Assembly: GCA_028287505.1 (NCBI GenBank)
Contig: JAQBPN010000046.1
Coordinates: forward strand, 1-37,535
Length of the DNA stretch: 37,535 nt
Direction of reading: 5' to 3'
Source: Fibrobacterota bacterium
GTDB taxonomy: Bacteria > Fibrobacterota > Fibrobacteria > UBA11236
The translations under genes were made by a program, and so were the position numbers. Below the pieces are notes generated by a model. That model was given only the letters and a program-made list of their open reading frames with translations. It had not been told where the DNA came from and ran no database searches. Positions 18,987 through 26,768 of the stretch are shown here, one piece after another (within the stretch, counting starts at the first letter, position 1; every line of letters begins with the position of its first letter).

Positions 18987-19496
18987 ATGAAGAAATTTTC
19001 CCTGTTTGCCGCGTTGGTTCTCTCCCTTACCGCTGCCGCCAGCGCTCAGTTCGAAGGCATCGGTTGGGATGGAAACAATGGCGAAATCGTCGGGCGCCTC
19101 GGCCTGGGCGGATACAACCATGTCGAAGCCGGAACGAGCTTCTATTACAACAACCAGGCCGATGGCGACGCCAAGGCCAACTTCACCCTGTCGGGCCGCT
19201 TCCTGCTGGCCTTGCACTCCTGGGAAAAGCTGACCGGCTACCTCAATGCCGGCGCCTATTTCCGCGATGACAGCCGGAATGCGTTCGGAAACCCCCTTCC
19301 CGGCACCTTCGGCAACGCCAACCGCGGCTCGCTGTCCGTCAAGGTCGGCTATCAGCCGGAAGTGGTGTTGCTGCCGCATCTGGCCGTTTCCATGATGTTC
19401 GGCGCGGGCATGGAATTGGTCCCGGAATTCGTGTTCAGCACCATCGGCGACAGGATCAGCATCGTGGACGGATTCAACTTCATCATCCTGTTCTAA
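18987..19496 (+). CDS. Small outer-membrane beta-barrel protein (unknown role)
   Basis: 169 residues beginning with a Sec signal peptide (MKKFSLFAALVLSLTAAASA, cleavage before Q21). The mature part alternates polar and hydrophobic residues (GRLGLGGYNHVEAGTSFYYN, FTLSGRFLLALHSW, LTGYLNAGAYFRDD, SLSVKVGYQPEVVLL) consistent with about 8 strands, and the chain ends FNFIILF with a terminal phenylalanine for BAM recognition. I recognise no specific family. GGAG lies 8 bases before the ATG, and a consensus promoter precedes it. A GC-rich hairpin follows the stop. Confidence 0.75.
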   Translation: MKKFSLFAALVLSLTAAASAQFEGIGWDGNNGEIVGRLGLGGYNHVEAGTSFYYNNQADGDAKANFTLSGRFLLALHSWEKLTGYLNAGAYFRDDSRNAFGNPLPGTFGNANRGSLSVKVGYQPEVVLLPHLAVSMMFGAGMELVPEFVFSTIGDRISIVDGFNFIILF

Positions 19497-19566: not shown

Positions 19567-20433
19567 ATGACCGGCAAAACGCCCCACCTGGGTTTCGGAT
19601 TGGGATTGCGCATCCCCCACTACTCCCATATCTTCGAGCATCGGCCCCAGGTCGATTTCTTCGAAATCATCTCCGAGAATTTCATGGCCGCGGGGGGCAT
19701 CCCTCTCTACAACCTGGATCGGATCCTGGAAAGCTACCGCGTGGTGATGCACGGTGTGTGCATGTCCCTGGGAGCGCCGGGGGAACTCGATTTCGGGTAT
19801 CTGAAAAAGCTGAAGGCCCTGGCGCGCAAGACCAATGCGCCCTGGTTCAGCGATCATCTATGCTGGACGCGTTCGGGAGCCCACCATTTCCACGATCTGC
19901 TGCCGTTGCCCTATACGGACGAAGCCGTCCGGCACGTAGCGGACAAGGCGCGCATCGCCCAGGACTTCATGGAGATTCCCTTGGGGATCGAGAATCTTTC
20001 CGCGGTGGCGGAGTTCTCGGCAGGAACCATGCCGGAATGGGAATTCTACCGCGCCGTGGTCGAGAAGGCGGACTGCCGGATGATGCTGGATGCGAACAAC
20101 ATCTACGTGTCATCGCGCAACCACCATTTCGATGCGATGGAATACGTGCGGGGCTTGGATTTGTCCAGGGTGTGCCAGATCCACCTGGCAGGCCACAGCG
20201 ACAATGGGACTTATGTCCTGGATACCCACGATCATCCGGTGCGGGATGAAGTATGGGATATCTTCAAGGCGGTTTACTCCGGGTGCGGGGGGGCGGCGAC
20301 CATGGTGGAGTGGGATGATGCTATTCCCTCTTTCTCCGAGACGCATGCTGAGGTTTTGAAGGCGAAGAGCTTGGTCTCGGGGGCGGGCGCGGGGGTCGCC
20401 GGCCTCAAGGCAAGCTCCGCGTCGGTCTCGTAG
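19567..20433 (+). CDS. DUF692 / MNIO family multinuclear non-heme iron oxidase
   Basis: The MNIO family (formerly DUF692; MbnB, TglH, BufB) uses two or three iron ions and oxygen to modify cysteines or other residues of ribosomally made peptides. 288 residues with a TIM-barrel pattern and the full set of metal-ligand motifs: SEN (E37), MHG (H62), SDH (D96, H97), IENLS (E142), LDANN (D175, N177), IHLAGH (H206, H210), DTHDH (D219, H221, H223) and VEWD (E248). No ribosome site; a TACATT stands 6 bases before the ATG, so the mRNA may be leaderless. The usual partner protein (DUF2063/MbnC-like) is not in the window. The last ~18 residues are encoded by the left arm of a palindromic element. Likely substrate: the Cys-rich peptide encoded 600 bases downstream on the other strand. 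Confidence 0.9.
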   Translation: MTGKTPHLGFGLGLRIPHYSHIFEHRPQVDFFEIISENFMAAGGIPLYNLDRILESYRVVMHGVCMSLGAPGELDFGYLKKLKALARKTNAPWFSDHLCWTRSGAHHFHDLLPLPYTDEAVRHVADKARIAQDFMEIPLGIENLSAVAEFSAGTMPEWEFYRAVVEKADCRMMLDANNIYVSSRNHHFDAMEYVRGLDLSRVCQIHLAGHSDNGTYVLDTHDHPVRDEVWDIFKAVYSGCGGAATMVEWDDAIPSFSETHAEVLKAKSLVSGAGAGVAGLKASSASVS

Positions 20434-20609
20434 GTCAGGTCCTCTGGGTCTTTCGGCCTTTCCAAACCGTTCCGCTGTTTCAATTGCTTAAAAGCGCTGA
20501 TCGAGGACACTCGCACGCGGGGTCGCGGTAGCAGCGCTTTTGCGCGTTTGGAAAGGCTGTTTGCAGGCTGCGCTTGATTCGGCCGGCGACCCCCGCGCCC
20601 GCCCCCGAG
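20376..20609. repeat. Nested palindromic element overlapping the 3' end of the MNIO gene
   Basis: A perfect 29-base inverted repeat forms the outer arms (20376-20404 with 20581-20609). Inside are two more perfect arm pairs: GCCTTTCCAAAC (20456-20467) with 20546-20557, and AAAAGCGCTG (20490-20499) with 20532-20541. The whole can fold into one long interrupted hairpin. The left outer arm lies inside the MNIO coding region and supplies its C-terminal codons. A MITE-like insertion or a structured 3' RNA element are the two readings. Confidence 0.7.
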
Positions 20610-20743
20610 TCCATCCCCCTGGCCTGCTGCACTGGGGGGGTGCGACGGCGAAGAAAAACCGATGCGTCGTGACTACACGGGTGCGGCGCGAACGCGGAGG
20701 GAGTAGGCCGCCGTTGATTTTTTGCGGGTGGGTTGGGCCTCGG

Positions 20744-20924
20744 GACTGCGGACCTTCGGGGAGGTGGGTCTCGAAGAAGAAGAGGGGGCTAGAGTGTTGG
20801 GACTCAGACTGCGGACCTTCGGGCAGGGGTGGGCCGCGAAGAGGAAGAAGAAGAGGGAACCTGAGTGTTGGGGCGCTGACTGCGGATCTTCGGATGGGAG
20901 TGGGGCGCGAGGAAGATGGGGATG
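20744..20924 (+). repeat. Imperfect tandem repeat, three copies of 63-71 bases
   Basis: Copies begin at 20744, 20807 and 20878 with GACTGCGGACCTTCGGG (third copy GACTGCGGATCTTCGGA), followed by a G-rich part and an AAGA-rich part. The third copy is partial. No gene is seen in the whole 20434-21037 gap; it is GC-rich and contains only this repeat, part of the palindromic element and the terminator. Confidence 0.6.
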
Positions 20925-20969
20925 GAAAGGAGGAATCGGGAAGGGGGTTGGGTGGGTTTTGGGCAAAAA

Positions 20970-20999
20970 AAGAACCCGCCTGGTTAGGGGCGGGTTCTT
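20970..20999 (-). terminator. Intrinsic terminator for the Cys-rich peptide operon
   Basis: Reading on the minus strand, perfect 11-base arms (AAGAACCCGCC with GGCGGGTTCTT, 8-base loop) are followed directly by a run of T. This is a textbook rho-independent terminator about 40 bases after the stop of the minus-strand peptide gene, and it supports that this gene is real and transcribed. Confidence 0.85.
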
Positions 21000-21037
21000 C
21001 GGACAGTTCGGCTGAGGCCGAATGTTCAGGAGGGGGG

Positions 21038-21469
21038 TTAGGCTTTGCAGCCGCCCAAGCCTTTGCATTCGTTCAGACCTTTGCAACCATGGGCTTTGCC
21101 GGCCTTGTCGGCGGCCATGCCCATTTTCTTGGCGGCGGCGTCGACGCCGGCCTGGTCCATCTTGCATCCACCCTTGCCTTTGCAGCTGTTCTGGCCTTTG
21201 CACGCGTGCTTTTCAGCGGCGGCGGTGGCGGCAGGAGCGGCAGCGGCGGCGGGAGCCACGCCAGCGGCGGCGGCGGGAGCAGCGGCAGCGGTGGTATCCT
21301 TATGGACCTTCGCGTGCTTGGCCTTCTTCGCATGCTTCGACGTATCCACGGGAGCGGAGGTCGCGGCGGCGGGAGCTGCGGCTTCTTCGGCGGAAACCGA
21401 AGCGACCGAGATCATACCGGCGGCGATGCCTGCGATGGCGAGATTCGCCAACAGGGTGGACTTATTCAT
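21038..21469 (-). CDS. Secreted Cys-rich peptide precursor with duplicated CKGxNxCKGxGGCK core (bufferin-like)
   Basis: 143 residues. A Sec signal peptide (about 1-27, ending SVSA) is followed by an Ala/Pro-rich stretch broken by a His/Lys segment (KHAKKAKHAKVHKD, 45-58), then two cysteine blocks: HACKGQNSCKGKGGCK (88-103) and HGCKGLNECKGLGGCK (127-142). All six cysteines (90, 96, 102, 129, 135, 141) fall in these blocks with identical spacing. Signal-peptide-bearing Cys-rich peptides encoded near MNIO genes are known as bufferins, copper-binding RiPPs. I infer that this is the substrate of the converging MNIO and that it acts in the periplasm in metal binding. It overlaps the upstream gene by 4 bases (ATGA) and is followed by a strong terminator. 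Confidence 0.8.
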   Translation of the reverse strand: MNKSTLLANLAIAGIAAGMISVASVSAEEAAAPAAATSAPVDTSKHAKKAKHAKVHKDTTAAAAPAAAAGVAPAAAAAPAATAAAEKHACKGQNSCKGKGGCKMDQAGVDAAAKKMGMAADKAGKAHGCKGLNECKGLGGCKA

Positions 21470-21804
21470 TTGGCGGCACCGGCGGCGGGAGCAGCGGCAG
21501 GGGCGGCTTCGGCAGCGGGAGCAGCGGCGGGTGCAGCGGCACCTTCAGCGGCGGCAGCGGGAGCAGCCTTGTGCTTCTTGGCCGACTTCTTCTTGGCAGC
21601 CTTGGTGTCAACCGCGGCGGTGGCCGGGGCGGCTTCCGTGGCGGCGGGAGCAGCGGCTTCCGCGGCAGCGGGAGCGGCGGCAGGGGCAGCAGCAGCGGCG
21701 GCCGGCTTGGCGGCAGCGGCGTCAGCGGCTACAACCTGGGAGACTCCCATGAGGCCAACGACCGCCATCGACAGAGCGAGGTTCGACAAGGTGTGCTTAG
21801 TCAT
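21466..21804 (-). CDS. Secreted Ala/Pro/Lys-rich small protein, cysteine-free paralogue of the peptide precursor
   Basis: 112 residues: a Sec signal peptide (MTKHTLSNLALSMAVVGLMG..., cleavage near AADA, ~27) and a mature part made mostly of alanine and proline with a lysine-rich patch (KAAKKKSAKKHK, ~68-79). The layout (similar signal peptide, Ala/Pro linker, Lys/His patch) repeats that of the next gene, but both cysteine blocks are missing, so it is probably a paralogue that lost or never gained the core. GGAAGGA lies ~8 bases before the ATG. The composition is so biased that the function cannot be read from sequence; the coupling to the Cys-rich gene (ATGA overlap) suggests a joint role. 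Confidence 0.65.
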   Translation of the reverse strand: MTKHTLSNLALSMAVVGLMGVSQVVAADAAAAKPAAAAAAPAAAPAAAEAAAPAATEAAPATAAVDTKAAKKKSAKKHKAAPAAAAEGAAAPAAAPAAEAAPAAAPAAGAAK

Positions 21805-21845: not shown

Positions 21846-21939
21846 TGGTTGTGGTGTCAAAAAGACGGTAGAAATGTAATAATTACCTGAACGTTCCTGA
21901 CAATTCCGGAGCCCGTTCCGCCAATTAAGTGAAATGGGC

Positions 21940-22062: not shown

Positions 22063-25785
<3,723 letters not shown>

Positions 25786-25808
25786 TTATAGGTCCTTTGT
25801 CTTGTAAG

Positions 25809-26768
25809 TCATATTTTCTCGGCTTGGGCCAGCAGCCCTTCTATTTCCGGATAGTCCTTGGACGGACCGGTTATCTCGAAATGGACGGCGGAGAAGCCGC
25901 TCTCTTTGAGCCAGGCTTCCAGATCGGACCGGGTGAAGCCCAGCCAGAAATCGCCGAACTTGGTGCGCATCCATTCCTCGCCGTGCGCCAGCAGATCCAA
26001 TATAAGGATGCGGCCGCCGGGCGCAAGCAGGCGATGGGATTCCGCGATGGCTTCCTTGGGCTTGGCCGCGTGGTGCAGGGATTGGGACATGATGACCACG
26101 TCGAAGGAGCCTGCGGGAAGCCCGGTATCTTCCATGGGCGCGTATTTGAAGGAAGGATTCCCGTCCGCGACCTCCATATCCGGGCCGTTGGCGTTTTCGC
26201 GCGCCAGGCGGATCTGTTCTTCGCTGCTGTCGATTCCCGTCACCGTGTTCCCGGCCTGGGCCAGCAGGATGGCCAGCCGGCCGTTGCCGCAGCCCAGATC
26301 CACGATGCGTTGATTGCGGATGAGGCGGATCAATCCATTGCACAGGGCCCGCCAGGTCTGTCCCGGGGAAGGCATGTTCTGCACCGTCTGGGTATTGAAG
26401 AATTCGCGCGAACGATCGCTGCGCTCCTCCAGGACTTTCTGGAGGTTGCGCATGTCGCGCTCGTACCACTTGGCGGCCGGCGCGCTTTGCAGGGCGTTCT
26501 CGATGATGTCCAGCTTGGGGTCTTCCTTGCCGTTGCGCGGAATCCGGTAGAGGACCTTTTGGCCTTCTTTCCGGCCGGCCACCAGGTCCTGTTCTTTCAG
26601 GAGCCCGAGTTGGGTGGACAGGGTGCTTTGGCCCAGCCCCAGGATTTTCTGGAGTTCGCCCACGGCCAATTCGGACTCCCTGAGGGCGCATAGGATGCGC
26701 AAGCGCGTCTCATCCGAGAGGAGCTTGAACACGCCGGTGAGGACGTCGATTTGCAGTACTTTGGCCAT
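25809..26768 (-). CDS. ArsR-family regulator fused to a SAM-dependent methyltransferase domain (SahR-like)
   Basis: 319 residues. Residues ~1-85 form an ArsR winged helix (FKLLSDETRLRILCALRESE, LGLGQSTLSTQLGLLKEQDLV); the metal-binding cysteine motif of ArsR/SmtB is absent. Residues ~150-290 form a class I methyltransferase domain with motif I VDLGCGNGRLA (156-166), acidic residue in VTGIDSS, and FDVVIMSQSLHH. ArsR proteins with such a domain (SahR and relatives) are known to regulate methionine-cycle genes by sensing SAM or S-adenosylhomocysteine. Here metH follows within 23 bases, so metH control plus autoregulation is the natural inference. A palindrome covers the promoter. TATAAT ends 6 bases before the ATG and no ribosome site is seen, suggesting a leaderless mRNA. 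Confidence 0.88.
   Translation of the reverse strand: MAKVLQIDVLTGVFKLLSDETRLRILCALRESELAVGELQKILGLGQSTLSTQLGLLKEQDLVAGRKEGQKVLYRIPRNGKEDPKLDIIENALQSAPAAKWYERDMRNLQKVLEERSDRSREFFNTQTVQNMPSPGQTWRALCNGLIRLIRNQRIVDLGCGNGRLAILLAQAGNTVTGIDSSEEQIRLARENANGPDMEVADGNPSFKYAPMEDTGLPAGSFDVVIMSQSLHHAAKPKEAIAESHRLLAPGGRILILDLLAHGEEWMRTKFGDFWLGFTRSDLEAWLKESGFSAVHFEITGPSKDYPEIEGLLAQAEKI

Follow-up and report, generated by a model that had tools for sequence, protein, structure and literature searches.

The closest described relatives of the system analyzed here are the Buf2 bufferins (Buf_6/12Cys, BufA2-BufB-BufC), or Cys-Lys captophorins (PMC12452194, PMC13097082). In bufferins, the bufABC order is strictly conserved, and both stand-alone and tandem precursors are known (PMC12452194); the PME-type 1 (PME1, DUF2063) partner is almost universally adjacent to the MNIO gene (PMC13097082). 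In characterized relatives, the enzyme depends on the partner, which converts the iron cluster into the active mixed-valent state, and the Sec signal has a leader-like role (PMC13419390). Like Buf2, the system described here has an MNIO that scores above the BufB cut-off and carries Asp after the catalytic Asp, a six-Cys, putatively Sec-type precursor with CKGxNxCKGxGGC blocks, and a PME1 partner encoded in the genome. However, its bufC is unlinked, its bufA is convergent with bufB in place of a bufA-bufB-bufC operon, and a second precursor is found at a third locus. In addition, the Cys blocks are 39 rather than 19 residues apart, the precursor has a Lys/His-rich Ala/Pro linker and is encoded with a Cys-free companion, and ECF sigma genes adjoin the Fibrobacterota relatives, whereas sigma factors have been reported at Buf1 but not at Buf2 clusters (PMC12452194). 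The oxazolins and fontiphorins (HvfABC and FonABC; Lys-Cys captophorins) also combine an MNIO and PME1 with a Sec-signal or Cys-rich precursor, and 5-thiooxazoles and copper binding would be further points of likeness; in contrast to their EGKCG repeats, Phe after the catalytic Asp, and operon, the present system shows CKG blocks, Asp, and dispersed genes. The methanobactin system MbnABC shares the MNIO fold and presumably the copper-binding Cys-derived groups, but it has no Sec signal, uses an MbnC partner, and serves copper acquisition. The unusual part is the conserved split of the MNIO from its partner: a conserved unlinked MNIO partner is not described in the bufferin and captophorin accounts (PMC12452194, PMC13097082), and Fibrobacterota are unmentioned in the same accounts.

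The window, that is, the whole stretch of DNA analyzed, is contig C66 (37,535 bp) of a 6.07-Mb Fibrobacterota genome in 130 contigs (G000). The genus of this genome comprises six genomes (G000-G005), and G006 is one relative outside the genus. The features of the locus are as follows.

19567-20433, plus strand: bufB, MNIO bufferin maturase (DUF692/PF05114) of 288 aa, recognized by PF05114, NF050167, and the EWDD signature
20969-21000, minus strand: intrinsic terminator of the companion-bufA unit, a hairpin followed by a T run
21038-21469, minus strand: bufA, predicted Sec-type precursor of 143 aa with six Cys, recognized as an ORF with the motif, a weak NF050166 match, and a conserved core
21466-21804, minus strand: companion of bufA, a secreted, Cys-free, Ala/Pro/Lys-rich protein of 112 aa, kept upstream of the metH-linked bufA in G000-G005
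21853-21879, minus strand: promoter-like box TTACATT-N14-GACACC, upstream of companion-bufA and conserved in the genus

The initial annotation had described an intact MNIO enzyme, and the profile and motif analyses agreed: bufB matched PF05114 with 332 bits and kept all motif residues (H62, H97, E142, D175/N178, H206, D219/H221, and E248), with the metal ligands in motifs common to the solved MNIOs 3BWW, 8HCI, and 7DZ9. It passed the NCBIfam model NF050167 (MNIO_BufB) with 313.8 bits against a cut-off of 310, and it is not an MbnB equivalog (TIGR04159, 35.8 bits against a cut-off of 325). In the signature E248-W-D250-D251, D251 directly follows the catalytic-base position D250 and occupies the position of FonB-Phe250; Asp at this position is the signature of Cys-Lys MNIOs (PMC13097082). 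As also stated in that annotation, the enzyme gene converges on a two-gene unit for secreted peptides on the opposite strand (21804-21038). The stop codons of bufB and bufA are 605 bp apart, and the ORFs of companion and bufA overlap by 4 nt; the unit ends at the terminator, where a T run comes after a strong hairpin of -21.1 kcal/mol (z -3.84). At the locus itself, no DUF2063, transporter, or regulator gene was seen adjoining bufB or the bufA unit. Immediately 5' of bufB, a secreted 169-aa protein lacking a Pfam match is encoded at 18987-19496 (plus strand), a homologue of which was observed near bufB in seven genomes in varying orientation. Three imperfect copies of a ACTGCGGAYCTTCGG-type repeat lie between bufB and the bufA terminator (20740-20900). 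On the minus strand, an ArsR-type regulator/methyltransferase fusion gene and metH (together 22063-26768) are followed by bufA, and the order of metH then bufA is kept in two genera.

The six Cys of bufA (positions 90, 96, 102, 129, 135, and 141) form two identically spaced CKGxNxCKGxGGC blocks, just as first read, and none of 200,000 shuffles of bufA that kept its composition gave even one such block. A 26-residue spacer separates the two blocks, whose distance is 39 residues, compared with 19 in most two-block relatives, and the Cys core is preceded by an Ala/Pro linker carrying a Lys/His-rich segment. The NCBIfam model NF050166 (BufA2) matched bufA weakly, with 18 bits against a cut-off of 60, which is the calibration line of one model rather than a biochemical feature; the block spacing of bufA departs from that of the common sub-type, and relatives of the same sub-type as bufA reached up to 43.5 bits (E 2.6e-11). 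We classify the window peptide, on its sequence, as a Buf2 (Cys-Lys) precursor of a wide-spacer sub-type, because the related bufB loci carry a CKGxNxCKGxGGC precursor upstream. The suggestion of a precursor class of its own was therefore overstated, since this sub-type, with block distances of 36-39 and a spacer, was also found in a few other phyla (loci L022, L024, L056, and L058), whose enzymes cluster with the operonic Fibrobacterota BufB in the BufB tree. What is confined to the window's genus is the Lys/His-rich Ala/Pro linker together with the Cys-free companion. The companion was observed 5' of the metH-linked bufA throughout the genus (G000-G005; partial in G004), and it had no Pfam match above cut-off. 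Both it and bufA start with a signal-peptide-like sequence, that of the companion resembling that of BufA, and the companion looks like a putative bufA signal peptide and linker minus the Cys core. By their sequence features, all precursors share a conserved Lys-start and a signal-peptide-like LAIAGIAAGMIS hydrophobic stretch. An AlphaFold model of bufA had low confidence (mean pLDDT 45), with a signal helix and a weakly helical spacer (106-116 and 120-126), and was not used as evidence.

The initial annotation had proposed a reduced system with no partner, and the absence of a DUF2063 gene from the window, with bufB and bufA convergent rather than operonic, would fit an MNIO that needs no partner and modifies a novel class of precursor. 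Locally, the lack of a partner, transporter, and regulator gene held; at the genome level, the absence of the partner did not. Profile search of the genome, as that annotation had advised, gave exactly one MNIO and one DUF2063 gene. The latter, bufC, encodes a 293-aa protein on contig C23 (L003:8568-9449, minus strand), 47 kb into a 69.7-kb contig, and matched DUF2063 with 43.9 bits (cut-off 27.2); its C-terminal domain matched NGO1945_C with 22.3 bits, under the cut-off of 27, and a phmmer search of the PDB with BufC as query gave no match. Such a protein, DUF2063 with an RRE-like domain, is encoded in trans in six of six genomes of the genus, which contradicts a reduced system, and the gene was present in every MNIO-bearing relative. 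A characterized relative, moreover, requires its partner (PMC13419390). A partner-free enzyme is thus scarcely credible, and the C23 protein is most simply read as the co-inherited partner of the window BufB. Since HvfB and HvfC were inactive when mixed after separate expression and needed co-expression (PMC13419390), the unlinked BufB and BufC must still be co-expressed; a regulator box or promoter shared by the upstream regions of bufB and bufC was sought, and none was found.

We addressed the distribution of the two genes across the phylum. The MNIO was found in exactly nine of 168 Fibrobacterota genomes and DUF2063 in the same nine, whereas the 159 genomes of the phylum that lack an MNIO also lack a DUF2063 gene with the RRE-like C-terminal domain. 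Identical genome sets would arise by chance with a probability of about 4e-15 if the genomes were independent, a figure that is only indicative given their shared ancestry. In seven genomes (G000-G005 and G006), bufB and bufC lie on different contigs. Within the genus, the neighbors of bufC are constant (cupin-like, OmpP1-like, and EamA genes), as are those of bufB (the secreted-protein gene, joined on contigs that extend far enough by STAS, mannose-6-phosphate-isomerase-like, and dnaA genes). An assembly artefact or contamination as the source of the split was rejected, because the G000 loci lie well inside their contigs and the neighborhoods are conserved across G000-G005. The two genes adjoin each other in G009, in G010, and in a second copy in G005; in G009 (L113), a member of the same family, precursor, MNIO, and DUF2063 form a contiguous bufABC operon, the precursor of which has the 39-residue spacing. 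For comparison, we analyzed the 80 closest bufB loci of the genome collection, 75 of them from outside Fibrobacterota. Outside the phylum, bufC lies directly 3' of bufB in all related loci with enough flank (73/73, a count that includes stop-to-stop frames starting inside bufB and extending past it), and the block pattern recognized a precursor in 54 of the 75 loci, in each case 5' of bufB and in the same orientation. These data bear out the proposal that enzyme and peptide belong to one bufferin-like system: close MNIO relatives with a recognizable precursor nearly all have a CKGxNxCKGxGGC peptide directly upstream, as does the G009 operon, and no consistent pairing of the relatives with a different precursor was observed, leaving the pairing unrefuted. 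In trees built by a quick method with SH-aLRT support only, the split BufB sequences formed one clade and the split BufC sequences another (SH-aLRT 100 each), and the remaining major clades were parallel between the two trees. Both genes are under purifying selection (dN/dS 0.06-0.13 for bufB and 0.17-0.28 for bufC).

The genome also encodes a second precursor at a third locus.

Contig C127 of G000, L150:7823-8167, plus strand: bufA', second Buf2-type precursor of 114 aa with six Cys and the 39-residue block spacing, recognized by the block pattern

The gene bufA' stands alone and has orthologues in G001-G005. Matches to the block pattern in G000 were limited to the window bufA and bufA', and the other genomes of the genus contained one metH-linked and one stand-alone precursor each; G006 had only the metH-linked precursor. 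As a control, the reversed block pattern gave no match in the same genomes. It might be argued that BufBC is real but acts only on bufA' or another protein, and that the window bufA lies near bufB merely through chance metH synteny. The adjacency is indeed not universal, as the metH-linked bufA is apart from the bufB of the same genome in G006, G009, and G001, and a box trained on bufA' fits the window unit weakly. However, the window bufA has a Cys core that is kept in relatives and that, like the core of bufA', is under purifying selection (dN/dS about 0.07-0.29 for the window core, and about 0.05-0.29 over both cores), and the two precursors are alike in Cys motif and signal-peptide type. 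We consider this alternative very improbable.

Both precursor units carry a box of the form WACnTT-N14-GAC about 70-100 nt 5' of the start codon. The window version is the single match in G000 even with up to three mismatches allowed. The G000 genome has one copy of the strict form AACATT-N14-GACWTA, 5' of bufA', and the single strict match in G003 lies 5' of an ECF sigma gene that is followed by a zf-HC2 anti-sigma gene. In G000 this sigma/anti-sigma pair is on contig C121 (L179), unlinked to the buf genes. An AACnTT-N14-GAC box is common to the sigma promoter and bufA', being present 5' of the sigma gene in G000, G001, G003, and G005, with weak versions in G002 and G004; the box of the window unit resembles this sigma-type box only weakly. 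In G009 a homologous pair adjoins bufABC, and in G006 one adjoins bufA; each of the eight MNIO-bearing family members tested has a single copy of the anti-sigma gene. ECF sigma control of bufA' is plausible. A dedicated role of this pair in bufferin regulation was unsupported, because G007 and G008, both lacking an MNIO, retain it, including the anti-sigma gene. In G002, an AACnTT-N14-GAC box was also observed 5' of a gene for a secreted thioredoxin-fold protein of the AhpC/TSA type that carries a CGGC motif (C32:290925; L165:1501-2430), a possible further member of the putative regulon.

Taken together, it is highly probable in our judgment that the window belongs to a dispersed Buf2 bufferin (captophorin) system, in which one BufBC assembled in trans would serve two Sec-exported precursors. 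In our model, the products of the window bufB and the C23 bufC would form a single cytoplasmic maturase that reads the hydrophobic Sec signal peptide as a leader and, in at least two precursors (the window bufA and bufA'), oxidizes the CKG-block Cys, the product most likely being 5-thiooxazoles. The modified peptides would then exit via Sec and chelate or buffer periplasmic copper, and expression of bufA' would probably be under the unlinked, autoregulated ECF sigma/anti-sigma pair. The gene content, the unlinked bufC, the co-occurrence and co-inheritance of the two genes, both precursors, the specificity signature, and the common promoter-like box were observed directly; the BufBC complex, the leader function of the signal peptide, the thiooxazole, the copper, and the sigma control of this model are taken from the family. 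That the peptides instead handle another metal or oxidative stress, or bear a different Cys modification, is in agreement with the lack of a copper gene adjoining the locus and with the fact that the Buf2 modification itself is without a solved structure (PMC12452194). We regard this as unlikely, considering that the PME1-dependent MNIOs examined make 5-thiooxazoles, with copper binding shown for several of the products (PMC13097082), and that Caulobacter Buf2 matched Buf1 in both its mass loss and its 305 nm band (PMC12452194).

More speculatively, and with somewhat less than even confidence, we propose that the genus-wide separation of MNIO and partner reflects a BufBC encoded by unlinked genes that would act as a general modifier of a small, ECF sigma-switched precursor regulon, replacing the one-precursor operon, with the companion possibly being a leader decoy or carrier. 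Cluster-finding methods and RiPP catalogues depend on the linkage of MNIO and partner; a stably scattered partner, enzyme, and precursors indicate that linkage is not required, and neighborhood-based surveys will miss scattered systems or misread them as "partner-free." This lineage offers natural material for studying MNIO-partner recognition and the question of one maturase serving several precursors.

Further MNIO loci were observed in the genus. In G005, an operon at L110:6800-10411 combines a lipoprotein-type precursor (seven Cys) with bufB and bufC as a second, complete bufferin operon, next to an ECF sigma gene and a regulator of the AraC type. A different MNIO-domain protein of about 490 aa is encoded beside a 58-59-aa peptide (GLGFDLNK...) in G005 (L111:8416-10086) and G003 (L115:7410-9099), with shared neighbors, and possibly represents another MNIO peptide system.
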